Positions 7,539 to 37,491 of a DNA stretch of 64,000 nt are shown here, in pieces. The position numbers and the translations under genes are program-made. Below the pieces are notes generated by a model. It was not told where the DNA came from. It did no database searches and was given only the letters and a program-made list of their open reading frames with translations. Within the stretch, counting starts at the first letter, position 1, and every line of letters starts with the position of its first letter. Source of the DNA: Haladaptatus caseinilyticus (GTDB taxonomy: Archaea; Halobacteriota; Halobacteria; Halobacteriales; Haladaptataceae); the NCBI RefSeq assembly GCF_026248685.1, contig NZ_CP111037.1, positions 1 to 64,000 on the forward strand, in the 5' to 3' direction.

Positions 7539-8010
7539 CACCCGAAACGACGGTGTTGTCACGCAGCGGAAATACCGGAGTTACTTGGTTTTTATACCAG
7601 TTTCCGTTCGGTTGTTGGTGAAAAATGGCAGACGAGCCGACGAGTAGCGTCCAAACCGACGCAGTACTCCCAAAAACAACGGAAATCATGGTATTAATTC
7701 GAATCCTAAAGGGTAGTGTAAACAACGGAAATGGTGGGGTAGAGGAATCCATTTGTTAAAACAAGGGCAGTGAAATAGAGAGGGAGAACAATGGAGAACT
7801 CGACGGGAGAATACGAAAGGAAAACCCGAAGTATATCAGATCGAACCGAATCAAAAGATAACAGTTGCAGAATATCGTGGAAGTAGCGGGAAAAATTCGA
7901 AATAGTCAGTTTAAATTCCCGGTGTAGTTTTATTTTAAAAGGGTTGGAGAAGCGAACCAGAACTGGTGGAGGTATTCAAGCGAATCAAAGAGCAGCGGAA
8001 ACAGTGGTGT
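7539..8010 (+). repeat. ORB-like origin repeats, cluster downstream of orc1
   Basis: Plus-strand copies of CAGCGGAAATNNTGGGGT-like repeats lie at 7564-7580, 7677-7693, 7723-7740 and 7993-8010. Weaker matches lie at about 7541-7558 and, inverted, at 7591-7612. The copies at 7723 and 7993 are the strongest. Each has the CNGCGGAAA core followed by a G-rich end, the form of haloarchaeal origin recognition boxes bound by Orc1/Cdc6. No gene is convincing between 7423 and 8157. Confidence 0.75.
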
Positions 8011-8114
8011 TTTCGACGGTTTATGAATGGTTTCGACATAATTGTAGTATTGAAACAGGCGTCGATATCCCGGAGAGAAAGTCGCGCGTTCTGCCGGACA
8101 TACGTTTTCTCGAG

Positions 8115-8171
8115 GATGTTCAGTTTGTTCGAAGACGTTCGATTTATTCGGGGACGTTCAGTTCTCTCGGT
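8115..8171. repeat. Three 19-bp tandem units overlapping the orc1 stop
   Basis: Units start at 8115, 8134 and 8153 and share GAYGTTCRRTTY followed by TTCG or CTCGG. Adjacent units agree at about 13 of 19 positions. The third unit runs across the orc1 stop codon (8158-8160). They differ from the ORBs. They may be a regulatory or replication iteron array, or simply decayed coding repeats. Confidence 0.4.
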
Positions 8172-9399
8172 CGTCGAGAAGTGATTGATAATATGGTCGA
8201 ATGCTCTCATGGACACCAGCGAGATCAATGGTTTCCTCGAGCGCGCTGACAACTAGCTGAAGGTCTTGTTTGAGCGCGTGTTCTCGGTACTTACCACCGG
8301 ACATACCCTCGTTTTTTTCCGTCGAAGAGATGACACCGAGCATAGCGAGGTCGGCAAGATGGTCGCGCATCCGCCGGCTAGTAAGAGCCTCGGTTCCGAT
8401 GTGATTGCACAACTGTTCGTAGCGAGGACGGATATCCCGCGACCGTGCCGGGGTGTTTCCTTCGGCTTCGATCGAGGTGAGCGCGTAGAGGATGAGACGG
8501 GCGTGTTGGGTGAGATCAGCAACACCTTCCATTATTCGGTCACGCTCGAGCTTTCGTCGCGCTTCCTGAACGTGCTGGTCGACGACCTGTTCTGCGGCGT
8601 CTTTTCGAGCGAGATCACCCGCTTCGAGAAGCAAGTCGAGTGCCTGCCGAGCGTCACCAGCATCCTGTGCACCGAACGCCGCACAGAGTGGGATTACGTC
8701 ATCCGCGAGAGCACTGTCGTGGAACGCAACTTGATCGCGCTGGTGGAGCACCTTCTGCAGTTCGCTCGCGTTGTACGGTGGAAACGAGACCTCCTTTTCA
8801 CAGAGCGACGAGCGTACTTTTGCCGAGAGAGAGTCACGAAACGAGAGATCGTTGCTGATGCCGATGAGACCGATTTTTGCGTGTTCGAGATAGCCATTGC
8901 TTCGAGCGCGTGGGATTTGATAGAGGATGGAGTTGTCGTTGATATGGTCTACCTCGTCGAGTACGATAATAATGGTTCCACCGACCTCGTCGAGTTCGTC
9001 CCAGAGAAAGCTGTACACTTGTGCCTGCGGGTAACCAGTGTTGCTGATTTGATCGGCTGGGTCACGGAGAGTGTTTACGAGACGAACCGCCACCTGGTAA
9101 CTCGAATTGAGACCATCGCAGTTGATTTCGATGACGGAAAGCGAGATGTCGTCGTATCGAGCGGCATCTTCTTGCAGTTGGTTTAGTAGAAATCGCGTTG
9201 CCGCGGTCTTACCGACGCCGCTTTTTCCGTAAAGGAATATATTTGACGGGGCTTCGCCGTTGATAATCGGTTGTAAGGCAGCGTGATACTCTTCGAGTTC
9301 GTCATCCCGTCCAACGAGGTTGTTGGGAGTGTACTCTTCCAACAGTGCGTCCCGGTTTTTGTAGAGAGAGTTATCCCGGTCGAAGCTGAACGATGACAT
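8158..9399 (-). CDS. orc1: Orc1/Cdc6 replication initiator
   Basis: A 413-residue AAA+ initiator. Walker A is LYGKSGVGKTAA near residue 58 and Walker B is IIIVLDEVDHI near 145. Sensor-type segments follow in LIGISNDLSFRD and AGDARQALDLL, and the family arginine lies in that last helix. A winged-helix DNA-binding domain fills about 310-413. It binds ORB repeats and loads the MCM helicase. ORB-like repeats flank the gene on both sides, and the AT-rich element lies about 460 bp upstream of its start, the usual archaeal orc-origin linkage. Haloarchaea carry many orc paralogues; which one this is cannot be read here. Confidence 0.95.
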   Translation of the reverse strand: MSSFSFDRDNSLYKNRDALLEEYTPNNLVGRDDELEEYHAALQPIINGEAPSNIFLYGKSGVGKTAATRFLLNQLQEDAARYDDISLSVIEINCDGLNSSYQVAVRLVNTLRDPADQISNTGYPQAQVYSFLWDELDEVGGTIIIVLDEVDHINDNSILYQIPRARSNGYLEHAKIGLIGISNDLSFRDSLSAKVRSSLCEKEVSFPPYNASELQKVLHQRDQVAFHDSALADDVIPLCAAFGAQDAGDARQALDLLLEAGDLARKDAAEQVVDQHVQEARRKLERDRIMEGVADLTQHARLILYALTSIEAEGNTPARSRDIRPRYEQLCNHIGTEALTSRRMRDHLADLAMLGVISSTEKNEGMSGGKYREHALKQDLQLVVSALEETIDLAGVHESIRPYYQSLLDDREN

Positions 9400-9492
9400 T
9401 ACTAACTGCTTTCACGGATGAGTATATAAAACTGAGGCGTCCGCTGTTTCTTCTGTTTCGCAATATATAAATAGCATACTGATTCGTTGGAG

Positions 9493-9824
9493 AGCGCCGT
9501 TTCCGTAGTTTTTACTCGTGGGCACGAGAGATGGTGCCGGGGGAGAATACTACAGAACAGAATGCTATATGGCGGAACACTACTTAGAATGCTGCGAAAC
9601 GACGAGTCATTCTGGTGGGAACTCAGTGGAGGGTGTCGTTGGTGGGATATGAGAATGTGCAAGTCGGAAGAACAGCGGAAATAGTGGTGGTCCGCGGCGA
9701 AGTGGATTTGAACGATAAGGGGTAAAGGCTGTTTCTGTGGCTTTTATCAACAGTTCGGTAACGAATTTTATCGCATTATCGCGGTCCTGTTTATAAAGAC
9801 ACACCCACCCCACTATTTCCTCTG
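9493..9824. repeat. ORB-like repeats between orc1 and the AT-rich element
   Basis: Three copies lie here: a weak minus-strand match at 9493-9508, a strong plus-strand copy at 9673-9690 and a strong minus-strand copy at 9807-9824. The last reads CAGAGGAAATAGTGGGGT on the minus strand. The inverted copy at 9807 and the forward copy at 10099 frame the AT-rich stretch, as in canonical archaeal origins. Confidence 0.75.
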
Positions 9825-9864
9825 TTTGGTTTGGGAGAAGTGTGGGTGGGTGATACACGAGTTC

Positions 9865-10030
9865 TAGTTAGGCGGAACCTTTATATTAGATAAAAACGAA
9901 CCATATCCGTACTAGGTAAATAGCAATAGAGTAAAAGATTATTGGTGCTAGATAATTGTTTCTGCTTTGTCTTCCTCTTTTTCATTTCATTTGATTTCAT
10001 TAACGTCTAATATATTATTATCTATTTAGT
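9865..10030. other. AT-rich candidate duplex-unwinding element of oriC
   Basis: About 165 bp of very AT-rich DNA with runs such as TTTATATTAGATAAAAA and TAATATATTATTATC, in a genome that is otherwise GC-rich. It lies between the inverted ORB at 9807-9824 and the forward ORB at 10099-10116, with the G-rich end of each ORB pointing outward. This is where helicase loading and melting are expected. There is no coding potential. Confidence 0.65.
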
Positions 10031-10098
10031 GACTGAATTTTCCCTCCCTCGTTCGACCCGTCCCCGTCTTCAACCCTCTGCACGTTTTTTCCATAAGA

Positions 10099-10797
10099 CA
10101 GCGGAAATGATGGGGTGGGTGTCATTGTCAACCCGTCACATACACCGCACACACGTACTCACGAATTGTGCAACACTGTTTCGAGCGACATCGACATCCC
10201 TCGAAAGTCGCGCCAAGAATCAACGGATCGACAGTCCCTTTGTGTCAATTTGGCAACGGAAATTATGGGGTAGATGTCATATCTCGTTTTTCCATTCAAT
10301 ACCGACTCGACAGCGGAAACTATGGAGTTGGTACGGGACCACTTCACACCGAAACAGCGGAAATGGTGGGGTTGCTGTATTTAAATCGTGGTGTTGCTTC
10401 GATAGAAAACGGTTGTTCTTGAAAAACGGCGGTACAGGTTCTATTCGTTCTGATATGCTTGTTTGACTATTTGATCCTATTACCTGTGACCATAGTAGAC
10501 CATCGAGACGCTACGTAGAATCCGCGCACGTCGTTTATTCTCGTCCGTTCTCGTGAACTATGATGGAGTATAATAGTTCCATTTTAGGCCGTTTCCGACC
10601 TCGTAACTCATTAACCAGTGCGTCGTGACTGTGCGAAAAACAGCGGAAACTACGGTGTCCAAATTATTCCTCGTAAAAACCGTTTCACATCAATTAGCAA
10701 ACCCTCAGCCGCTTCTCGACGGGTGATTTCGTCCGGACGATACCTGGATGACGATTAATCATACTTTGTGACGCACCAACAGTGGAAAAAGCGGCGT
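10099..10797 (+). repeat. ORB-like repeats, right arm of the origin
   Basis: Six forward copies lie at 10099-10116, 10254-10271, 10311-10328, 10355-10372, 10641-10658 and 10780-10797. Those at 10099, 10254 and 10355 match CARCGGAAATNRTGGGGT at nearly every position; the last is the most diverged. Spacing is irregular. From 9400 to 10932 there is no convincing gene; the stretch is dominated by these repeats and the AT-rich element. Confidence 0.78.
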
Positions 10798-10932
10798 TAC
10801 CCACTAAATGCCGATAGAATCCTGGATATACAGGAGCTTTGACGTCTGAATAAATAGTGGCTTGAGCGTAGCACTGCCTAAGTAATATTACTTGTCAAAG
10901 TACTCTTCGAACAGTGGTAGTTTGGTCGGATA

Positions 10933-11742
10933 TTAATTCTGTTCGACTTCCAGAATACGTGCGTCACAGCCCTCACAGGTTGCCGCGACGACTTCCATCG
11001 AGCGACAGCACGACTCGACGGTTTCCTGCTCTGCAGTAATAGTGCCATCACATTCAGGACAGGTTTCGAGGAAGATTCGAAGACCGCTCAGGATTCGGCT
11101 TTGATTGTCCACGGAGAGTTCGTTCCAGTCATCGTAGCGGTCGCTAAGCTCACGTGCTGCGGCAAGGTCGGCAACGAGCGCGGCGTGGGATTCCCATTGA
11201 CCAAGTCGACGGCCATCGATTCGAGCGATGAACGCGCCTTCGTGTTCCTCGAACTCCAGCTCGTTCTCGTCAGAGTCGAGGATACGGCTCAGGTCGTTCT
11301 TTTCGGCACCGTTTTCGAGGACACGCTCCATTTTTTCGTGCCATACCGTTCTGAACTCTTCGTTGAGGCAGAGGTCGTCGATTTCTTCACAGGGTCCAAC
11401 GACGTTCGCCTCGGTGAGCACCTCTTCGGGTTCCCGGTCAGATTCTATCGGTGCTTGTGTTGGCGCTGCCATTTCGCTTTTGTCGAACTTCCGGAGCAAC
11501 CAATCAGGGAAGTATTTCTTCGTCAGTGTCGGCGTTCCCGGCACGAGATACCCGCGAAGGTAGATTGCCACCATACTGAAGGCAAAGAAAACGATTCCGA
11601 GTGGCATCGCCGCAAATGTTAGGCCTGCGCTTACGACAACGGCAATTGTGATGTTCACAATTGTACAGGGTGTACAACGATTTTCCCCAATATATTCTGG
11701 CTGTTTAAACCGGTCGATGAATCCCGTCCGTTCCGTGCTCAT
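10933..11742 (-). CDS. Conserved haloarchaeal membrane protein with C-terminal zinc-ribbon cysteines
   Basis: A 269-residue protein of unrecognised family. Two membrane segments lie near residues 28-62 (IVNITIAVVVSAGLTFAAMP and GIVFFAFSMVAIYLRGYLVPG). A long soluble part follows. The C-terminus carries CPECDGT, a CC pair and CEGCDARILEVE, which could form a zinc site. It is the first gene right of the origin. A role in replication or segregation would be only positional inference. Confidence 0.75.
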   Translation of the reverse strand: MSTERTGFIDRFKQPEYIGENRCTPCTIVNITIAVVVSAGLTFAAMPLGIVFFAFSMVAIYLRGYLVPGTPTLTKKYFPDWLLRKFDKSEMAAPTQAPIESDREPEEVLTEANVVGPCEEIDDLCLNEEFRTVWHEKMERVLENGAEKNDLSRILDSDENELEFEEHEGAFIARIDGRRLGQWESHAALVADLAAARELSDRYDDWNELSVDNQSRILSGLRIFLETCPECDGTITAEQETVESCCRSMEVVAATCEGCDARILEVEQN

Positions 11743-12215
11743 TTCGTTCCAACTATTTTGCTTCAGCGTTATATACTTATTGTTGAATATTCATAATGAC
11801 AGTTAAAAATCTCTTCGTGTTCACAATCAAAAACGCTCCAGGCTGATATAGGGTCTCATCAGAGTCACAACTTCGTCAGCGGTATGGTGTTTCATTTAAG
11901 AAACAAATTTATAGCGTCCTATATCTGGGCTGATCACGTATTTTCGTATTAGTAATTTCACGTGGAAATACGAATCAGTAACGTCACGCCTGCTGTCGCC
12001 AACCTCGATGGTTCGAGTCGGTTCTATCGTACCGACTCGTCGCTTCCGAAGGAAGAACGCGAAGCGGACGAATCCATCGTGTTCTTCGTACTATCCGGTA
12101 CGAACCGCGTGGTTTATTCTCATGAATTGCTTGTCGAGGATGCCACGTTTTCCTCCGACGCCTGGGGTTCGATGGAAAAATCGACGCTCCGAAAAGCTGC
12201 CTATTTTTGGTTTTT
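11743..12215. other. Intergenic; one doubtful small frame
   Basis: About 470 bp. The only candidate is a plus-strand frame from GTG 11962 to 12258 (98 codons) with fair third-position GC until about 12180. It then runs into a T-rich end that overlaps the reductase gene's 3' end. There is no recognisable domain, so it is not called as a gene. Confidence 0.3.
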
Positions 12216-28491: not shown

Positions 28492-29640
28492 CTACACGCT
28501 CGTCAAATCATCTATATCTTCCTTCAGCAGGTCGGCGTATTCGAGCCTGATTCGACGTGCTTCCCCGTCCGGCAGCGTCCATCCGTGTTCGATGCGCTCC
28601 GATATCGGGTGGTAACGCGTCACGTCGAAACCCATCGTCGTCAGATAGTCCTGCACGCGCAGCGATCCGACTCCTTCGTTGATCGCCTCCTCGCTGAGTT
28701 CGTGCAGCTCGGAAAACGGTGGAATGCCGATTTCGTTCGTTCGGACGCCGGCCTCCCCGACGACGACTTCTTTGTACTCCGTCTGTTCCATCAGGTTCGC
28801 CACTTCACCGACGAGGCGGAGAATCTGACTCGGAAGTGCGGTGTCCGGAGCGCGCCACTCCACTGTCGGCGACTGCTGGCGCAGTCGAACAGGTGTTAAC
28901 ACGGCATTTTCACGGTCGAAGTACTGACTGAACGTCTCCGTGTCGATACCTCGTTCCCGTGCGAGCAGTTGCAGGACGTGATATCCCTCATCGATGCGCT
29001 CTTCCCACTGGGCTTCGCTTTCGACGTATTCCCAGAGGTCACGGTAGCGAGCGAACGTCTCGTGCGATTCGTAGCGATATACCGCCGCACGTGATGAGCA
29101 CGCCATCCGATTGCCGTCGTAGTACGGCGAGGAGCAGACGAGTGCGAGTGCGGGGTCGAGTGCGGTAAGCAGGTTCACCTGTCGAACCACGTTTCCCTTG
29201 TCGAAGTGGACGTGTGTCCCCGCACAGTTCTTCGCGTATTCCATGTCTTCGCCGTACATCTCCTCCAACAGTCGCCCGCGCTCGGTCGTAATATCGAGCG
29301 ACTCCGAGGCGAGTGGCGTCCCGAGCGGAACGAGAGACAGTCCGCGTTCTTCGCCCGTGTCACGGACGCGTCGGAGAATCAACCCGAGCTCCCGTCGCAG
29401 CTCCTCCGTGCTCGAAACGGGCGGCGTTTGTACCTCTAACAGCGGTATGACGAACTCCGGGACGACGTACTCGCTTACATCGAACAGATCGTTCAAGGCG
29501 TCGTCCGTTTCGGTCACTAACTCGCCCGATTCATCGATTACCCAGTATTCTGCTTCGATTCCGATTTTCATTTCCATCCCCCAGCCGGTGACCGATGCGG
29601 TTCGTCGCCGTGTCGATTCGGTGCTCCATTGCTCCGCCAT
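28492..29640 (-). CDS. Glutamate-cysteine ligase-like (GCS2 family) enzyme
   Basis: About 382 residues from ATG 29640; the conserved core begins MEMKIGIEAEYWVID, so a start at about 29577 is possible. The GCS2 signature includes IGIEAEYWVID, the ATP/metal-binding NCAGTHVHFDKGN near residue 150 and EWRAPDTALPS near 280. This family makes gamma-glutamylcysteine (the haloarchaeal thiol) or acts as a weak carboxylate-amine ligase. EAEYWVID differs from the usual haloarchaeal GshA start (VEEEF-VVD), so it may be a paralogue. It lies downstream of the SLC13 permease on the same strand. Confidence 0.78.
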   Translation of the reverse strand: MAEQWSTESTRRRTASVTGWGMEMKIGIEAEYWVIDESGELVTETDDALNDLFDVSEYVVPEFVIPLLEVQTPPVSSTEELRRELGLILRRVRDTGEERGLSLVPLGTPLASESLDITTERGRLLEEMYGEDMEYAKNCAGTHVHFDKGNVVRQVNLLTALDPALALVCSSPYYDGNRMACSSRAAVYRYESHETFARYRDLWEYVESEAQWEERIDEGYHVLQLLARERGIDTETFSQYFDRENAVLTPVRLRQQSPTVEWRAPDTALPSQILRLVGEVANLMEQTEYKEVVVGEAGVRTNEIGIPPFSELHELSEEAINEGVGSLRVQDYLTTMGFDVTRYHPISERIEHGWTLPDGEARRIRLEYADLLKEDIDDLTSV

Positions 29641-29795
29641 CGCGACAATTCGACTCTGCAACAGAAATCGTACGCCACTGAACGATGCGTCACCGAGCGA
29701 TACAGGAACTACGCGACCGGAGGGCTAATAACTTACGCGAATTATTTCATCCAAAATTTGGTTGCATAGTCGGCGTCGAAATCGGGTATTCACGG

Positions 29796-31628
29796 CTATA
29801 GCGGCCAAAACATGGCGATCCCGACAACCGTCACGGCCGACAAGAGTAGTTGGAGCGGTGCCCCGATGCGGAAGTAGTCGGTGAACTTGTACCCCCCCGG
29901 CCCATAGACGAAGAGGTTCGTCTGGTAACCGACCGGTCCGAGAAACGACGTCGAGGCGGCGAAGGTCACCGCGAGGACGAACGCGAAGGGGTTCGCGTCG
30001 ATACGGAGCGCCGCCTCGATTGCGACGGGAATCATGAGGACGACGCTGGCGTTGTTGCTGATAACTTCGGTGATGAGACCGGTGGCGATGTAGAACACCC
30101 AGAGGACGGCGATAACTGGGAGAAAGTCCGCGCTGGCGGCAACGAGACCACCGAGTAGTTCGGCTCCACCTGACGCTTCGAGCGCGATACCGAGTGGAAT
30201 GACGCCTGCCAGGAGGAAGATCACGTTCCATTCGACCGAGTCGTACAGCTCGTGGGCTTTGAGTACGCCGGTTGCGACCATCGCCACGACGCCCGCGAGA
30301 GCGGTAACGAGAATCGGAAAAATGCCGAGAGCGGCGAGTAGAACGACCCCAGCGATGATAGCGAGTGCGGCTGGAATCTTGTCGGTTCGGTAGTCCGGGT
30401 CAGCGACTTCGTGTGCGACGATGAAGTCCCGATTCGCGGCAAGGCGGTCGATACTGCCCGCGGACGCCTGCATGAGGAGGGTGTCGCCGACTCGAATCGT
30501 CACGTGGTCGAGTCGCTCGCGAATGAGTTCTCCCCGGCTTCGAAACGCGAGGACGGTCGCGTTGAATCGTTCGCGGAACGTCGAACTCGAAAGTGTCTCG
30601 CCGACGAGTTCGGAATTGGAAGGGATGACGACTTCGACCAGCGTCTGGTTTTCGCCGGGGTCGATGGATTCGTCCGTCGGCGTTCCGACCAGGGTTAGGT
30701 CGTCCAACGTCACGAGCGAACGGAGCGTCGAACGATCGGTTCGGACTTTGAGTACGTCGCCCGACCGAACCGTTTTCTGGCCGATGGGTTCGATGAACGT
30801 CTCGTCATCGCGGACGATTTGGATGATATCGACGTCGAAGATTGCCGTGTCGATGGCCTCCTTGACGGTCTTCCCGACGAGCGGCGACCCCTCGTTTACT
30901 TCCACTTCTGTCAGGTAATTTTCTATCTCGTACTCCTCGATGTAGTCCTCTTCGGGGGGGACACGCGACGGGAGGAGGTGATGACCGACGAACAGCAGGT
31001 AGAGACTTCCAGTGACGAGGACGATGACTCCGAGTTTTGTGAACTCGAACATCGAGAAGGCGTGGAGTCTCGGGTCGGCAGTCGTTTCCGCCAGTCGACC
31101 CGCTACGTTGCTCGCGAGGATGTTGGTCGAAGTGCCGATGAGCGTCAGCATTCCGCCCAGCATCGAGGCATACGAGAGTGGAATCAGCAGTTTCGAAGGC
31201 GAGGTGTCCCCCTCGTGGGCGAGATCCGTGATGACCGGAACCAAAATCGCAACGACCGGCGTATTGTTGACGAACCCGGAGGCCGGTCCCGAGACGCCAA
31301 TCGTTGCGATTAGTTGCTTTCTGAGGTCGTTGCCGGCGAAACTCGCCAATCGGTTTCCGAGCAGTTGGACGACCCCGGTTTGACTCACACCCGAACTGAG
31401 GATGAGCATCGCCAGAACGGTGATGGTTGCCTCGTTGGAAAACCCCGAAATCCCTGTCGTCGGGTCGATGCCGGTCCATGGTTCGAGGACAATTAGTGTC
31501 ACCATCACCAAAATTGCGGTGACATCGACAGGAAGGAGTTCGGTTGCGAAGAGAACAAGCGCGAGGAAGACGATAGCAAACACTACCAGCATGTCAGCCG
31601 TCACACCAGCACCCCCAACCTGCAACAT
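29796..31628 (-). CDS. SLC13-family anion permease with two TrkA-C domains
   Basis: A 610-residue permease. About five N-terminal membrane helices (from MLVVFAIVFLALVLFATELL) precede two RCK-C/TrkA-C regulatory domains near 220-300 and 310-390 (VEVNEGSPLVGKTVKEAIDT; VVIPSNSELVGETLSSSTFRE). Helices resume to the end. SLC13 signatures are GFVNNTPVVAILVP and ITEVISNNASVVLMIP. It is likely a sodium-coupled sulfate or dicarboxylate importer; the substrate cannot be read. The true start may be GTG 31604 or ATG 31592. The downstream GCS2 gene hints at sulfur/thiol metabolism. Confidence 0.88.
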   Translation of the reverse strand: MLQVGGAGVTADMLVVFAIVFLALVLFATELLPVDVTAILVMVTLIVLEPWTGIDPTTGISGFSNEATITVLAMLILSSGVSQTGVVQLLGNRLASFAGNDLRKQLIATIGVSGPASGFVNNTPVVAILVPVITDLAHEGDTSPSKLLIPLSYASMLGGMLTLIGTSTNILASNVAGRLAETTADPRLHAFSMFEFTKLGVIVLVTGSLYLLFVGHHLLPSRVPPEEDYIEEYEIENYLTEVEVNEGSPLVGKTVKEAIDTAIFDVDIIQIVRDDETFIEPIGQKTVRSGDVLKVRTDRSTLRSLVTLDDLTLVGTPTDESIDPGENQTLVEVVIPSNSELVGETLSSSTFRERFNATVLAFRSRGELIRERLDHVTIRVGDTLLMQASAGSIDRLAANRDFIVAHEVADPDYRTDKIPAALAIIAGVVLLAALGIFPILVTALAGVVAMVATGVLKAHELYDSVEWNVIFLLAGVIPLGIALEASGGAELLGGLVAASADFLPVIAVLWVFYIATGLITEVISNNASVVLMIPVAIEAALRIDANPFAFVLAVTFAASTSFLGPVGYQTNLFVYGPGGYKFTDYFRIGAPLQLLLSAVTVVGIAMFWPL

Positions 31629-31746: not shown

Positions 31747-34083
31747 TCATTTCGACAGCCGCTCTAGCGTCTCGATTTCGTCCATCGAGAGACCGTAGGC
31801 GCGATACACCAATCTGTCGATGGCGGATTCCGTCCGAGCGATCCGCTCTTCTAACTCCTCCGCCCGTCGGTTCGTCTCGATAAATTCGCAAGCGTCGTCG
31901 GGTTCGGGAAGGCAAATCGATTCGAGTCGGTCGGCAGGAGAGATCGTTTTCGTCGCCCGTCCGGTAAACGTCTCGTGGTTTACTGCACGTGGGATGAACC
32001 ATCGGAGTAAATCCCGCCACTCCCCGTCACCATCGAACGAACGTACTGGAATCGGTTCCGTTTCGGTGAACCCCCAGGAATCGGTTTCCGACCCGTCCCC
32101 AGGCCGATACCGTGCCGTCGCGCGAACCACGAGTTCCCCTTCGTCGCCGTTTTCGACCATCGACACGGTTCCGAGACGAAGTCCGTCCCGCGTTTCGGTC
32201 GTTTCGGTCAGTACCGACTCCGGATGGGTGATCCGAGTCACGTCCTCGAGTTGTGGGCCGTTACCGGCCGGCAGTTGAATCTCGATACCCTCCCGTTTCC
32301 GCCGCAGTTCTTGCATGCGGTCCGCGAGCACAGCCAGCGCATCGGATTCGTTGCGTCCATCCGGAATCGGCAGTCGGGTCGCAAACATCGGTTTGAATCG
32401 AAGGTAGCCGCCACTGACGTGGGTTCCACCGTACACCTGTTGAAACCAGCAGGTCGCGGCGGTCGAGTTGATAACCGTGAGGAGGTACCGAAGCGGGAGG
32501 TCGGAACTCGAACGAACGCTGTAGAGCGTGTTCAGGGCGTAATATCCCTCGTCATCGTAGACTGCGACGGGGCGTTCGCTGATGTCCCGCAGGAGTAGCT
32601 TTTCGTCCTCGAACACGCTCCGGTCGCGCAGACTTCCGTACTCGCCGTCGCCGATGAGCGACGGATCGAACCGAATCCACGTTCCGTCCCAATCGAGCCT
32701 GTACCGTTCGACGTTACCACCACTGACGAGTCGTTCGCAGTTCGGACCCCGGTCGTCAACGATGAGTTTGTCCCGTACGTTTCCGGTATGGATCCCCTCG
32801 GTCTGAGTGACGTGCGAACGCAATTCGTCGTTTTCACGCCGGAGTCGCTCCGCAATCGGCACGAACGCCGGGTCGATCCCGACCGGAATCACGCGGTCGC
32901 CGAGTTCGTCCACGAACGACCGCGAGAGACGGGTTTCATCCGCTTTGTCGCTCCCCTCACCGAGTTCTGCGAGGGTCTCTGCTTGTCGAACCCGTATGGT
33001 TTCGGTCGGTCCAGTTTGCGACTCGATGGTGACGACGAGTGGGTAGACGCTGGCGTCCGCGAACACCGACACTGCCGATACGTCGAGCAGTTCCTCCAAT
33101 CGATGGTGGTCGAGGAGATGGTCACGGAGCGTCCGCCCGTATCGCGCCGTCGTCCACTTGTTCGGAACGATGCAGGAAATCCGACCGCCGAGTTCGGTCA
33201 TGCGCTCTACGAACGGGACGTAGAGATCGAACGCACCGGTTACGGTTTCGTATTGGGATTTGAGGCTCTCTTTCGTCCCTGCTGGAATGTGCCGGTTCCT
33301 GATATACGGGGGATTGCCAACCACCGCGTCGAACCGTCCGGTACCGGGCCAGTTCGTGTCGTTGACGAGTGAATCACCGACTCGAAGGTTGTCGTCGGGC
33401 CACACGCCCGTTTCGAGCCACACTGCCGACCGGGCGAGTTCGACCGCAAGGGGGTCGATATCGACGCCGAACACGCAGTTTTCAGCGACGTTTTGCCGTG
33501 CCGTCTCGGTATCTTCGTTGCGCAGTTTTGCCAGTCGGTCGATGGCACAGGTTAGAAAATGGCCGCTTCCCATCGCTGGGTCGAGCACCGTCGCGTTCGG
33601 ATTCCTCGCGAGTGCTCGTGAGACGGCGTACTCCACCACGCGTTCTGGCGTGTAGTATGCGCCAACCGACGCTCGTTGTGTCGCGTCTTCCGAAAGTCGA
33701 ACTTCACCGTCGGTGACGGTCGGTTCGCAGTCGAGCAATCGTTCGTAGATATCTCCGAGATGACGTGTCGATAGCCGGTCGTACTCGAATTCATCGAGCG
33801 CGGTTTCGAGTCGCATCGCCGTTTGCGGCGACAGCGACTCGAACAGTTTCCTCCGTTCTCGCAGCGCCCCTCCGTTGGCGAACGGTGGTTCGTCACGTCC
33901 TCGACTCGCCGAAAAACGGGCGACGAGTCCGTGAAACACGCCAACGAGAGCGGCGTCGAACGCTCGTTGTGCGTTGATCTCTCTCCCGTCGAACAAGCCG
34001 TCGGTGACCAGTTGGAGACCGTTCCGAACTGTTTTGTCGAGTCGCTCCGCAGGTGGTTCGTCCGCTCCGCGGAGTTCATCCAT
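31747..34083 (-). CDS. Eco57I-type N6-adenine DNA methyltransferase, no nuclease domain
   Basis: A 778-residue protein. Residues 1-135 are helical. YYTPERVVEYAV (143-154) leads into SAM motif I DPAMGSG (168-174), and the catalytic motif IV is NPPY (257-260). A TaqI-like specificity region follows (about 380-600), then a variable C-terminus with a coiled-coil end (RAEELEERIARTESAIDRL). Full type IIG enzymes are near 1000 residues with an N-terminal PD-ExK nuclease; none is visible here. No restriction partner lies next to it, so it is an orphan methyltransferase or the modifying part of a defence system. It follows an HTH/membrane pair by 33 bp. Confidence 0.85.
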   Translation of the reverse strand: MDELRGADEPPAERLDKTVRNGLQLVTDGLFDGREINAQRAFDAALVGVFHGLVARFSASRGRDEPPFANGGALRERRKLFESLSPQTAMRLETALDEFEYDRLSTRHLGDIYERLLDCEPTVTDGEVRLSEDATQRASVGAYYTPERVVEYAVSRALARNPNATVLDPAMGSGHFLTCAIDRLAKLRNEDTETARQNVAENCVFGVDIDPLAVELARSAVWLETGVWPDDNLRVGDSLVNDTNWPGTGRFDAVVGNPPYIRNRHIPAGTKESLKSQYETVTGAFDLYVPFVERMTELGGRISCIVPNKWTTARYGRTLRDHLLDHHRLEELLDVSAVSVFADASVYPLVVTIESQTGPTETIRVRQAETLAELGEGSDKADETRLSRSFVDELGDRVIPVGIDPAFVPIAERLRRENDELRSHVTQTEGIHTGNVRDKLIVDDRGPNCERLVSGGNVERYRLDWDGTWIRFDPSLIGDGEYGSLRDRSVFEDEKLLLRDISERPVAVYDDEGYYALNTLYSVRSSSDLPLRYLLTVINSTAATCWFQQVYGGTHVSGGYLRFKPMFATRLPIPDGRNESDALAVLADRMQELRRKREGIEIQLPAGNGPQLEDVTRITHPESVLTETTETRDGLRLGTVSMVENGDEGELVVRATARYRPGDGSETDSWGFTETEPIPVRSFDGDGEWRDLLRWFIPRAVNHETFTGRATKTISPADRLESICLPEPDDACEFIETNRRAEELEERIARTESAIDRLVYRAYGLSMDEIETLERLSK

Positions 34084-34116
34084 CGATTACAACTCACTCT
34101 GAAGCGGGATAAGCCT

Positions 34117-34389
34117 TCACTCGGCGTAGAGTGAGTACGCGATTGCCGCGAAGCCGATAGCAGTCAACGCGCTTTCGATGACGAGCACGAGTTCGCGGTC
34201 GGTTTGGAACGCTTGGTCCGCGATACCCGCGAGGAACGCACCGAGGGTGACGATACCGAACCCGATCGCTAACGAACGAAGTGCTTTCGAGCCGGTACGT
34301 CGATACGCTTTGAGCGCGAAATACGTTATTATTCCACCGAGAGCGAGCGTGAGCGTTTTGAGGGCGATGACGATGGGTGCAACGTTCAT
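34117..34389 (-). CDS. Small three-TM membrane protein (haloarchaeal DUF7521-like)
   Basis: 90 residues from ATG 34389 (MNVAPIVIALKTLTLALGG). Three hydrophobic segments lie near 5-25, 38-58 and 68-88. It overlaps the upstream HTH gene by ATGA, so the two are coupled. Such pairs of a small membrane protein with an ArsR-like HTH recur in haloarchaea. The role is unknown, possibly sensing for the regulator. Confidence 0.78.
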   Translation of the reverse strand: MNVAPIVIALKTLTLALGGIITYFALKAYRRTGSKALRSLAIGFGIVTLGAFLAGIADQAFQTDRELVLVIESALTAIGFAAIAYSLYAE

Positions 34390-34757
34390 GTTTCTTTTCG
34401 TACCTCCGACCACAGTCGTTCGAGGCGTTCGTCGGTCGTTTCCGGCGGACGCTCTATCGACACGTCGAAGTCCCGGTCGTCCGTAAGCGAGATGTTTACC
34501 GATTCGACCGCGAGTTGGTATCTGGACGTATGATGCCCGTCTTCGCGAATTTCAGTCAACTCCGTGACGAGTGATGCGTCACTCAGCATATCGAGCTTTC
34601 GGTAGAGCGTCGAGAGCGGGATATCCGTTTCGTCGGCGAGTTCGCGCGCCGTCTGCGGGTCGTTTAGCTCCATGATTATTCGTCGGCAGGCGGGGTCGTC
34701 TAGAGCGTCGAGTATTTCCTGTAACTCGGGCGCGTCATCTGCCAAGTCCCGCACCAT
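34386..34757 (-). CDS. ArsR-like winged-helix regulator
   Basis: 123 residues. ILDALDDPACRRIIMELNDP begins the ArsR-like winged helix, the recognition helix is in TDIPLSTLYRKLDMLSDASL, and the wing is in REDGHHTSRYQL. There are no metal-binding cysteine pairs, so it is not a classic metal sensor. It is translationally coupled to the small membrane protein. It lies 121 bp downstream of copA, and its own promoter could fit there. Confidence 0.85.
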   Translation of the reverse strand: MVRDLADDAPELQEILDALDDPACRRIIMELNDPQTARELADETDIPLSTLYRKLDMLSDASLVTELTEIREDGHHTSRYQLAVESVNISLTDDRDFDVSIERPPETTDERLERLWSEVRKET

Positions 34758-34878
34758 TCGGTTTGGATTTCTGTGGCTCGATACATAATTGGTTCGACTA
34801 CTGCGACCGTTTTCATCGGCCGAGAATCATCGAAAATCGGGTGACGATGTGGCGAGATACCTCCGTCGTTCTCGCTGT

Positions 34879-37491
34879 TCAGCGGCGGTATCCGAGGAGT
34901 TCGTAATCGTGGTCCGGAACGTATCTCTTGAACAACAAACTGTTCGTCAGCACGCTCACGCTGGAGAAGGCCATCGCAGCGGCTGCGAGCGCCGGTTGGA
35001 GAAGTCCGAGCGAAGCCAGCGGAATCATCGCCGTGTTGTAGCCGAGCGCCCAGAAGAGGTTCTGTTTGATTTTCGAGAGCGTCCCCTCCGAGATACGGAT
35101 GGCTTTCACCACGTCGCGCGGGTCGTCGCGCATGAGCGTCACGTCCGCGGCCTCGATCGCCACGTCGGTTCCGCTCCCGATGGCAGTTCCGACGGATGCC
35201 GCGGCGAGCGCTGGCGCGTCGTTCACGCCGTCGCCGACCATCATCGCCCGCCTGCCGTCCGACTGCACGTCCTCGACGACGCCCGCCTTTTCGTCCGGAA
35301 GGACTTCGGCCCGCACGCGCTCCGGGTCGATACCGACCCGGTCGGCGACTGCGCGGGCGGTTCGTTCGTTGTCTCCCGTCAGCATGAGCACGTCCAGTCC
35401 ACGCGCTCGGAGGTCGTTCACGGCCTCCTTGGCGCTCGCTTTCACCTCGTCGGCGTCCGCGACGACGCCGACGAGGCGGCCATCGACGCAAACGAGCATG
35501 GCCGTTTTTCCCTCGCGTTCGAGTCGTTCCAGTACGTTCGTCGCTGGACGTGGATCGATTCCCTCCTCACGCAGGAGCTTCCGGTTGCCGACGACGATTT
35601 CGCCGTGACTCGTCTCCGCTCGAATCCCGTGGCCGGGAACGTTTTCGAACGAACTGGGCTCCTCGACGTCGATACTGCGCTCCTTCGCCCCCGCAACGAT
35701 GGCTCTGGCGAGCGGATGCTCGCTTCCGTGCTCCGCGCTCGCCGCCACGGCGAGGACGAACTCCTCCGTGATTTCCGGTTCAAATTCGCCTGCTACCGTT
35801 TCGGTCCCGCCGTCGGTCTCGGGCTCGAGCGCAACCATGTCAGTGAGGCGCATCTCGCCCTCGGTGAGGGTTCCGGTCTTGTCGAAAACGACCGTGTCGG
35901 TGTCCTTGACACGTTCCAGCACGTCGCCACCTTTGAACAGGACGCCGGTTCGTGCACCGATCGCGGTTCCGACCATCGTCGCCGTCGGTGTCGCAAGCCC
36001 GAGCGCGCAGGGACAGGCGATGAGCACCGCGCTGGCGAAAACGACGATGGCGAACTCGAACCCCGAGACGCTTCCCCCGGCGACTTGCGGCCCTCCAGCG
36101 ACCGGACTCCAGAGCGGAAGCGCGTTCACGAATCCGGCGAGGGATTCGGGGAAGAGAGACCAGACGACGGCCCAGAACAACGCGTTGGCGATGACCGCCG
36201 GGACGAAATAGGCGCTGATTCTGTCGGCGAGGTTCTGGATTTCCGGTTGGCGGGCCTGTGCTTCCTTCACCATCCGGACGATCTGCTGGAGCGCTGTTTC
36301 GCCGCCGACTTTCGTCGCACGAACCATGAGAAGGCCGTTTTCGTTGATGGTCGCGCCGATGACTTCGTCGCCGTCTCGCTTTTCGACCGGCACCGATTCG
36401 CCAGTTACCATCGACTCGTCAACCGCGCTTTCGCCGTCCACGACGACGCCGTCGGTCGGAACCTTCTCGCCGGGACGGACTCGCAGTCGGTCTCCGACTT
36501 CGACTTCCTCCAGCGGAACTTCGCGCTCCTCGCCGTCTTCGACGACGGTTGCAGTATCCGCTTCCAGTTCGAGCAGTTCGCGGAGGGCATCGCTGGCCCT
36601 GCCTTTCGACCGGGCTTCCAGCCAGTTGCCCATCGTGATGAACACGAGGATGAGCACCGCGCTGTCGAAGTAGGTCCCGCCGGGGATGAACGAGAGCATG
36701 ACGGCGACGCTGTAGACGTAGGCCGTAGTCGAACCCAGGGCGATGAGCACGTCCATGTTCGCCGTGCCGTTCTTTACGAGGGCTGTATAGGAGTTCTCGT
36801 AGAACTCCTTGCCGAGCAGAATCTGGACGGGAGTCGCCAGCAGGAACTGAACGAGTCGAATATCGACGCCGAACATCTCTTCGCCGAGTAGTTCCGGGAA
36901 GAAGAGGTGTTCGAACATGACGGCGAGAAGGGGCATCGCGAGTACTGCCCCGAACAAGGTCAGTCTGAACTGCTTGCGAATCTCGGCGTCGCGGGCGTCC
37001 TGTCGGGCGTCGGCCGCTCGTTCGTCGCCTCCGTCCTCCCGAACCGGGGTGTATCCCGCGCTTTCGATGGCGGCATAGAAGTCCCCGATGCTCGCCTCGG
37101 TCGGATTGTACTCGACAGTGACCTCGTCGGTGGCGAAATTAGCGTCGGCGCTGATAACGCCGGGAACCGATTCGAGTGCGTTCTCGACTGCCTCCGAGCA
37201 GTTCGCACATGACATGTCCGAGATCCCTACTGTCGTCGTCGCGCGAACTGGGTCGTATCCCGCGTCCTCGATGGCCGCGTAGATTGCTGTCACTGAGACC
37301 TCTTCGGGATCGTACTCGACGGTGCCTTCGTCGGTAGCGAAATTGACGTTCGCTTTCCGAACACCGTCAAGCGATTGGAGTGCCTCGGTGACCGCCCCTG
37401 AACAGTTCGCACAACTCATGCTGCGGATTTCGAGTTGCGTTTTTTCCGTCACGGATAGCTCCTTGCCTTTCCATAAGGGTTGCTTCTTCAT
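34879..37491 (-). CDS. copA: Copper-exporting P1B-type ATPase CopA
   Basis: An 870-residue P-type ATPase. Two N-terminal heavy-metal domains have CANC at 27-30 and 95-98. The transmembrane metal site is CPCALG, the phosphorylation motif [10 protein letters not shown] and the hinge [11 protein letters not shown]. The CPC motif and paired CxxC domains indicate Cu(I) export. A CopZ-like chaperone and a TRASH-domain regulator occur about 8-10 kb away (44.4-45.4 kb), making a copper-handling set. The start at 37491 gives a 20-residue lead before HMA1. Confidence 0.94.

Follow-up and report, generated by a model that had tools for sequence, protein, structure and literature searches.

A predicted orphan adenine methyltransferase of type IIG descent and a neighbouring, probably copper-linked regulator pair in Haladaptatus

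In the haloarchaeon Haladaptatus caseinilyticus, a gene for a large adenine DNA methyltransferase closely follows the genes for a winged-HTH regulator and a small membrane protein, which raises the question of whether the three work as one machine or are neighbours with separate tasks. We analyzed this locus in a stretch of 64,000 nucleotides (contig NZ_CP111037.1, positions 1 to 64,000; hereafter the window) and compared it with related genomes. On the reading that we favour, with a probability of roughly 0.6, a lineage-fixed orphan methyltransferase, predicted to form N6-methyladenine, stands beside a separate copper-linked regulator pair, the two being neighbours and not parts of one machine. 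A preliminary description had considered a regulated epigenetic system of all three genes, or alternatively a role in defence in which the membrane protein acts as the effector.

All three genes lie on the minus strand. The regulator gene (34386..34757) encodes a 123-aa winged-HTH protein of the HTH_20 type, the membrane-protein gene (34117..34389) a 90-aa DUF7521 protein with three hydrophobic segments, and the methyltransferase gene (31747..34083) an Eco57I/TaqI-type protein of 778 aa without a nuclease. The best start of the DUF7521 gene is the ATG at 34389, which overlaps the HTH stop codon as ATGA (an alternative GTG start lies at 34413), and 33 bp separate this gene from the methyltransferase gene. 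The three reading frames, the overlapping pair and the short gap were confirmed as first described. The next same-strand gene upstream of the HTH gene, absent from that description, encodes a copper-type P1B ATPase (CopA-like; 34879..37491) that contains HMA domains and is conserved beside the pair in Haladaptatus. Downstream, also on the minus strand, a CitMHS/DASS-type permease gene (29796..31628) is a conserved neighbour that lies outside the system. The order CopA-HTH-DUF7521-methyltransferase-permease was identical in ten of ten genomes (nine of Haladaptatus and G009, from a sister genus); some of these loci carry insertions in front of the permease gene. This recurrence shows that the arrangement goes beyond chance.

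Domains and origin of the methyltransferase

The Pfam models Eco57I (2e-29), N6_Mtase (4e-18) and TaqI_C (1e-15) matched the methyltransferase over their cut-offs and the same search found no nuclease domain in its 778 residues, in agreement with the initial view of a large adenine methyltransferase that carries a specificity region and lacks a nuclease. Residues 1-130 form only a helical connector. The catalytic domain, residues 131-360 (33004..33693, minus strand), contains GAYYTP, DPAMGSG and NPPY, which we take to be motifs X, I and IV and which were largely invariant among 14 aligned relatives. The TaqI_C-like target-recognition domain, placed by Pfam at residues 452-552 (32428..32730, minus strand), is poorly modelled, the pLDDT of the structure model being below 50 at residues 430-539 in the recognition region. 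The protein has the N6-adenine methyltransferase and recognition domains of a type IIG enzyme, which it shares with DrdV, BpuSI and its long haloarchaeal relatives, whereas the same-chain nuclease that survives at the N-terminus of relatives is missing. The best solved relative is CamA of C. difficile (2e-16 by sequence, 6e-13 by fold), which is likewise an orphan, genus- or species-wide, Eco57I/TaqI-like enzyme. The two proteins are 16% identical over the fold alignment, and the model does not allow their recognition domains to be compared. They differ in that descent from a type IIG enzyme is a feature of the protein described here. Membership of BREX or DISARM was rejected because matches to those models were generic or below cut-off only; for BREX PglX, the protein remained below the NCBIfam cut-offs (73.7 against 500 bits for BREX-1, and the others likewise).

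The next-closest relatives of the methyltransferase occur in genus g3 and are 1285-1463 aa long. In the N-terminal part of these long relatives, a PD..(D/E)xK motif is present in G019, G021, G023 and G024 and missing in G012, G015, G016 and G027. The N-terminal domain of a long relative, when modelled (mean pLDDT 76), had the type IIG enzyme DrdV as its closest match (4e-4) and showed a weak likeness to BpuSI (0.075). The G009 copy, which is longer than the genus copies and lies at the window's own locus, retains a nuclease stub with a TDGRRWRL stretch and no catalytic motif, and the Haladaptatus proteins lack everything up to the helical connector. Comparison of these proteins shows a decay of the nuclease and, judged by them, the methyltransferase goes back to a type IIG restriction enzyme that lost this domain: a type IIG restriction-modification enzyme would have shed its N-terminal PD-(D/E)xK nuclease, leaving the methyltransferase as its remnant. 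One archaeal family presents a series that runs from complete type IIG enzyme over a same-locus nuclease stub to a fixed orphan methyltransferase. As this decay series is readable, the question of how a restriction enzyme turns into an epigenetic regulator becomes testable in named species. Among named records, Haladaptatus litoreus, H. pallidirubidus and Haladaptatus sp. DYF46 carry the gene.

On the tree, the distribution of the nuclease motif required at least four changes, with G014 counted as motif-positive (its protein start is wrong, being set too early). The clade of the genus and G009 had full support, and its link to G281 was weaker, with values of 83/71 in the first tree and 96/92 in the second. 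G022b, which is without the anchor motif, was left out of both trees, and the second was also built without G226, G017, G002L, G010, G011, G022a and G015b. Eight of nine g3 loci adjoin the same exonuclease-like gene, and a ferrochelatase gene lies within the fetched stretch in six of nine. These shared neighbours indicate that the g3 loci are one vertically inherited locus, which is not that of the window. At these loci (L111-L113 and L120-L125) the nuclease motif was lost several times, and the methyltransferase was retained.

We also considered a split type IIG enzyme, with the methyltransferase as one part and a nuclease half that another gene of the genome encodes, as the available text of PMC4389544 proposes in Haloferax volcanii for HVO_A0006 and HVO_A0237. 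However, a search with a 240-aa nuclease-domain query found no such half in eight of nine genus genomes, including the window's own, and in the remaining genome (G002) the match lay only inside a separate 1374-aa protein. A split enzyme is therefore hardly credible. Inspection by eye of ten related loci revealed no nuclease-like gene between the methyltransferase and the next conserved gene. A restriction gene hidden in the variable gap before the permease was likewise discarded, because the insertions there (loci L103-L107) were judged by eye to encode a CDF-type cation transporter in G005, G007 and G008, a phosphate-transporter-like protein in G002 and a glyoxalase-like protein in G004.

Distribution and conservation of the methyltransferase

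Some match to the methyltransferase at 1e-20 was present in 23 of the 28 family genomes, among which full-length matches were confined to the nine of nine Haladaptatus genomes and G009. At 1e-90, with three candidates scored per genome, at least 21 of the 293 genomes of the order had a match, 19 of them within the family. No relatives were found in viral contigs, and a viral origin was ruled out on this ground. The gene is intact in eight of the nine genus genomes and lies in frame-broken pieces in G007, where copA (L106) is frame-broken as well. That both genes are fragmented in this genome suggests sequencing or assembly error and not the decay of one gene. In H. pallidirubidus (NZ_CP085301.1, G004; L107, L108), two identical copies of the locus lie about 0.55 Mb apart, the result of either the duplication of a large segment or an artefact of assembly.

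Persistent orphan methyltransferases are defined, in the available text of Anton and Roberts (2023; PMC10609329), by occurrence in 75% or more of a taxon that comprises five or more genomes, and the methyltransferase described here is found in 9/9 Haladaptatus genomes, with one copy fragmented. The archaeal persistent orphans listed there as HG groups are type II enzymes, mostly m4C with sites of 4-5 bases. Unlike the window's methyltransferase, none is described in the accessible parts of that paper as a nuclease-less type IIG enzyme; HG13 is weakly Eco57I-like but belongs to Methanosarcina (PMC10609329). In the portions of the haloarchaeal literature at hand, the nearest nuclease-less type IIG orphan was HVO_A0237 of Haloferax volcanii. 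Going by its description, it too is a type IIG relative from a haloarchaeon, about 730 aa long and lacking a nuclease domain, but it is plasmid-borne beside a transposase and its locus is not conserved (PMC4389544 and PMC5867850, in their available text). The name 'Haladaptatus' does not occur in PMC6471742. Comparison across the genus shows fixation of the gene, and by these sequence comparisons the methyltransferase is a new candidate for a persistent orphan, with a type IIG ancestor. The remnant would have become, in Haladaptatus, a fixed and vertically inherited orphan.

The dN/dS of the methyltransferase was 0.19-0.33 in eight between-species pairs, higher than the 0.00-0.18 of its neighbours, for which one additional DUF7521 value was 0.26. 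In four pairs that were split by segment, the recognition segment was under about the same constraint as the catalytic segment. As judged from these ratios, comparison shows selection on the gene, which is of the purifying kind. The elevation of dN/dS above that of the neighbours and the fragmented copy in G007 would also be expected of a decaying remnant, a weakly active or inactive leftover of a restriction enzyme that is kept by chance for now. Such a remnant has a precedent in HVO_A0237, which according to the available text of PMC5867850 makes no contribution to methylation in vivo, and the window's methyltransferase may by analogy be inactive. However, the reading frame is open in eight of nine genus genomes and in G009, its dN/dS remains at the values given above with the recognition and catalytic segments about equally constrained, and the catalytic motifs are largely invariant, so that we regard a decaying remnant as unlikely.

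For the orphan methyltransferase that we favour, an epigenetic role is reasonable, because it has a specificity domain, occurs genus-wide, shows conservation of both catalytic and recognition segments and has CamA as its best solved relative. This part of the proposed regulated epigenetic system stands, whereas the three-gene module that went with it is unsupported. The enzyme most likely methylates adenine at one target common to the genus, and its mark would probably be epigenetic, altering how proteins bind to its sites, in the manner of CamA.

The HTH-DUF7521 pair and its neighbourhood

The regulator scored above the cut-off of HTH_20 (44 against 27 bits, 2e-11) and below that of the classical ArsR model HTH_5 (18.8 against 22 bits). 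Thus, the ArsR-like HTH of the preliminary description is a winged HTH, but the classical ArsR assignment does not extend to it. The membrane protein belongs to PF24365 (DUF7521; 4e-33, 114 bits against a gathering score of 27) and has hydrophobic peaks at residues 3-21, 39-57 and 67-85. In SdpR/SdpI, an ArsR-family regulator is paired with a membrane protein, and a small HTH gene is followed by a small membrane-protein gene. The layout of the HTH-DUF7521 pair resembles this arrangement, but DUF7521 is another family, and the HTH protein reached 21.8 bits in the NCBIfam SdpR model against a cut-off of 100. Within the HTH family, 46 of 47 sequences retain Cys24 and all 47 retain His76, and the DUF7521 alignment contains no Cys-, His- or Met-rich columns. 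A literature search found no mention of DUF7521. The window's own genome (G000; C1, C2, C3 and C6, L032-L036) holds five more DUF7521-like genes, four of them over the Pfam cut-off, and three of these five stretches match the HTH as well.

Relatives of the HTH were found at 1e-22, with 15 candidates scored per genome, in at least 266 of the 293 genomes of the order, and relatives of DUF7521 at 1e-12 in 267 of 293. We compared 46 pair loci from other genera, hand-picked among the best HTH matches, each from a different genome and in most cases from a different genus. In 45 of these loci both genes lay on the same strand at short spacing, and at locus L150 DUF7521 was not found. The methyltransferase was absent from every one of them (0/46). 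The co-occurrence survey that had been suggested for other haloarchaea thus gave a divided result: the association is fixed across Haladaptatus and in one genome of the sister genus, but it is not seen at the 46 pair loci outside.

In the first 20 pair loci, halocyanins and multicopper oxidases were recurring neighbours, with families confirmed for eight sequences. The idea of a copper link was formed on these loci, the remaining 26 were held out, and 33 arbitrary stretches served as controls for the whole set of 46. A halocyanin gene lay near the pair in 15 of 46 loci compared to 1 of 33 controls, a multicopper oxidase gene in 12 of 46 compared to 0 of 33, and any copper gene in 20 of 46 compared to 2 of 33, so that 26 of the 46 show none. 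The held-out loci contained a halocyanin in five cases (p 0.053), a multicopper oxidase in seven (p 0.0019) and any copper gene in nine (p 0.0065). A universal link between the pair and CopA was dropped, as CopA adjoins the pair in Haladaptatus and G009 only (0/46 elsewhere). No HTH-copper link of this kind was found in the accessible parts of the literature. Comparison of loci shows a copper neighbourhood, which offers a functional lead for a near-universal haloarchaeal pair. As far as sequence comparison goes, the HTH-DUF7521 pair is probably an older, independent unit, a regulator with a membrane partner that is copper- or redox-linked. In such a unit, the HTH would likely control its own promoter, DUF7521 would likely tether or release the HTH, and the pair would probably be linked to copper or to blue-copper electron transfer.

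These data also bear on the proposed defence module, in which the methyltransferase would mark self DNA and the three-segment membrane protein would be the effector. The gene order by itself and the PADLOC matches of the methyltransferase, which are generic methyltransferase ones, would be compatible with such a module. However, DUF7521 matches none of the PADLOC families, is near-universal in the order and has copper genes as neighbours elsewhere, and the locus itself is stable and not an island. The proposal is therefore very improbable.

Promoter-like elements and transcription

A TTATCC box, a promoter-like element at 34107..34112 on the minus strand, ends 24 nt before the ATG of the methyltransferase gene. 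In an ATG-anchored alignment, for which the start codons of G009 and G007 were set by hand to fit, this box was invariant in all ten orthologues including G009, and when the sequences were shifted clade-wise 20,000 times as a control, invariant runs reached a length of at most 2, compared to 6 observed. Its position is about that of the TATA box in a leaderless haloarchaeal transcript. Upstream of the HTH gene, a different element, AGTAGTCGAAC-N2-ATTATGT (34783..34802, minus strand), is conserved in the genus and diverged in G009, and is likely a promoter and operator. The 16-bp core of this element has one exact match in the window's own genome, at the HTH gene, and the four one-mismatch matches in the whole genome include none at the methyltransferase gene or copA; control of the methyltransferase by the HTH was rejected because the element is missing there. 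A bacterial promoter and terminator scan of the locus was uninformative, the host being an archaeon.

The gap between the DUF7521 and methyltransferase genes varies from 31 to 118 bp in the genus. It is 31-33 bp in the window and three relatives, so that read-through from the pair into the methyltransferase gene is possible, and 31-49 bp in six of ten genomes (measured in G007 from the first matched residue). These short gaps, together with a gene order that is unbroken throughout the genus and G009 (10/10) and thereby counts against our reading of two units, would suit a three-gene module in which an HTH gated by the membrane protein controls the methyltransferase and methylation answers a membrane or metal signal. 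However, the methyltransferase gene has its own promoter-like box in 10/10 genomes and a gap of up to 118 bp, the HTH-promoter element is missing from it, and the pair occurs without it in 46/46 loci elsewhere, which renders such a module improbable. Comparison shows separate promoter-like elements, and we favour, from the conserved box and the varying gap, transcription of the methyltransferase from its own promoter, separate from that of the pair; this promoter would be leaderless. Independent transcription is what the preliminary description had named as evidence against its proposal, together with the lack of a conserved association, and the first of these is favoured here.

A more far-reaching alternative is a metal-linked epigenetic switch, in which the methyltransferase, fixed in Haladaptatus beside a copper exporter and the HTH-DUF7521 pair, would methylate sites in promoters of the copper and redox regulon and the HTH would read both metal state and methylation. 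We consider this decidedly unlikely; if true, a restriction enzyme would have been turned into a regulator by the loss of its nuclease in place.

Two further features of the window were observed. A gene for a GCS2-type glutamate-cysteine ligase (28492-29661) lies close to the copper exporter locus, and a thiol link of this enzyme to metal handling is conceivable. Furthermore, the G+C content is about 0.46-0.50 at positions 8000-12000, compared to about 0.58 around the locus, and the GC skew changes there too; this segment is possibly foreign DNA.
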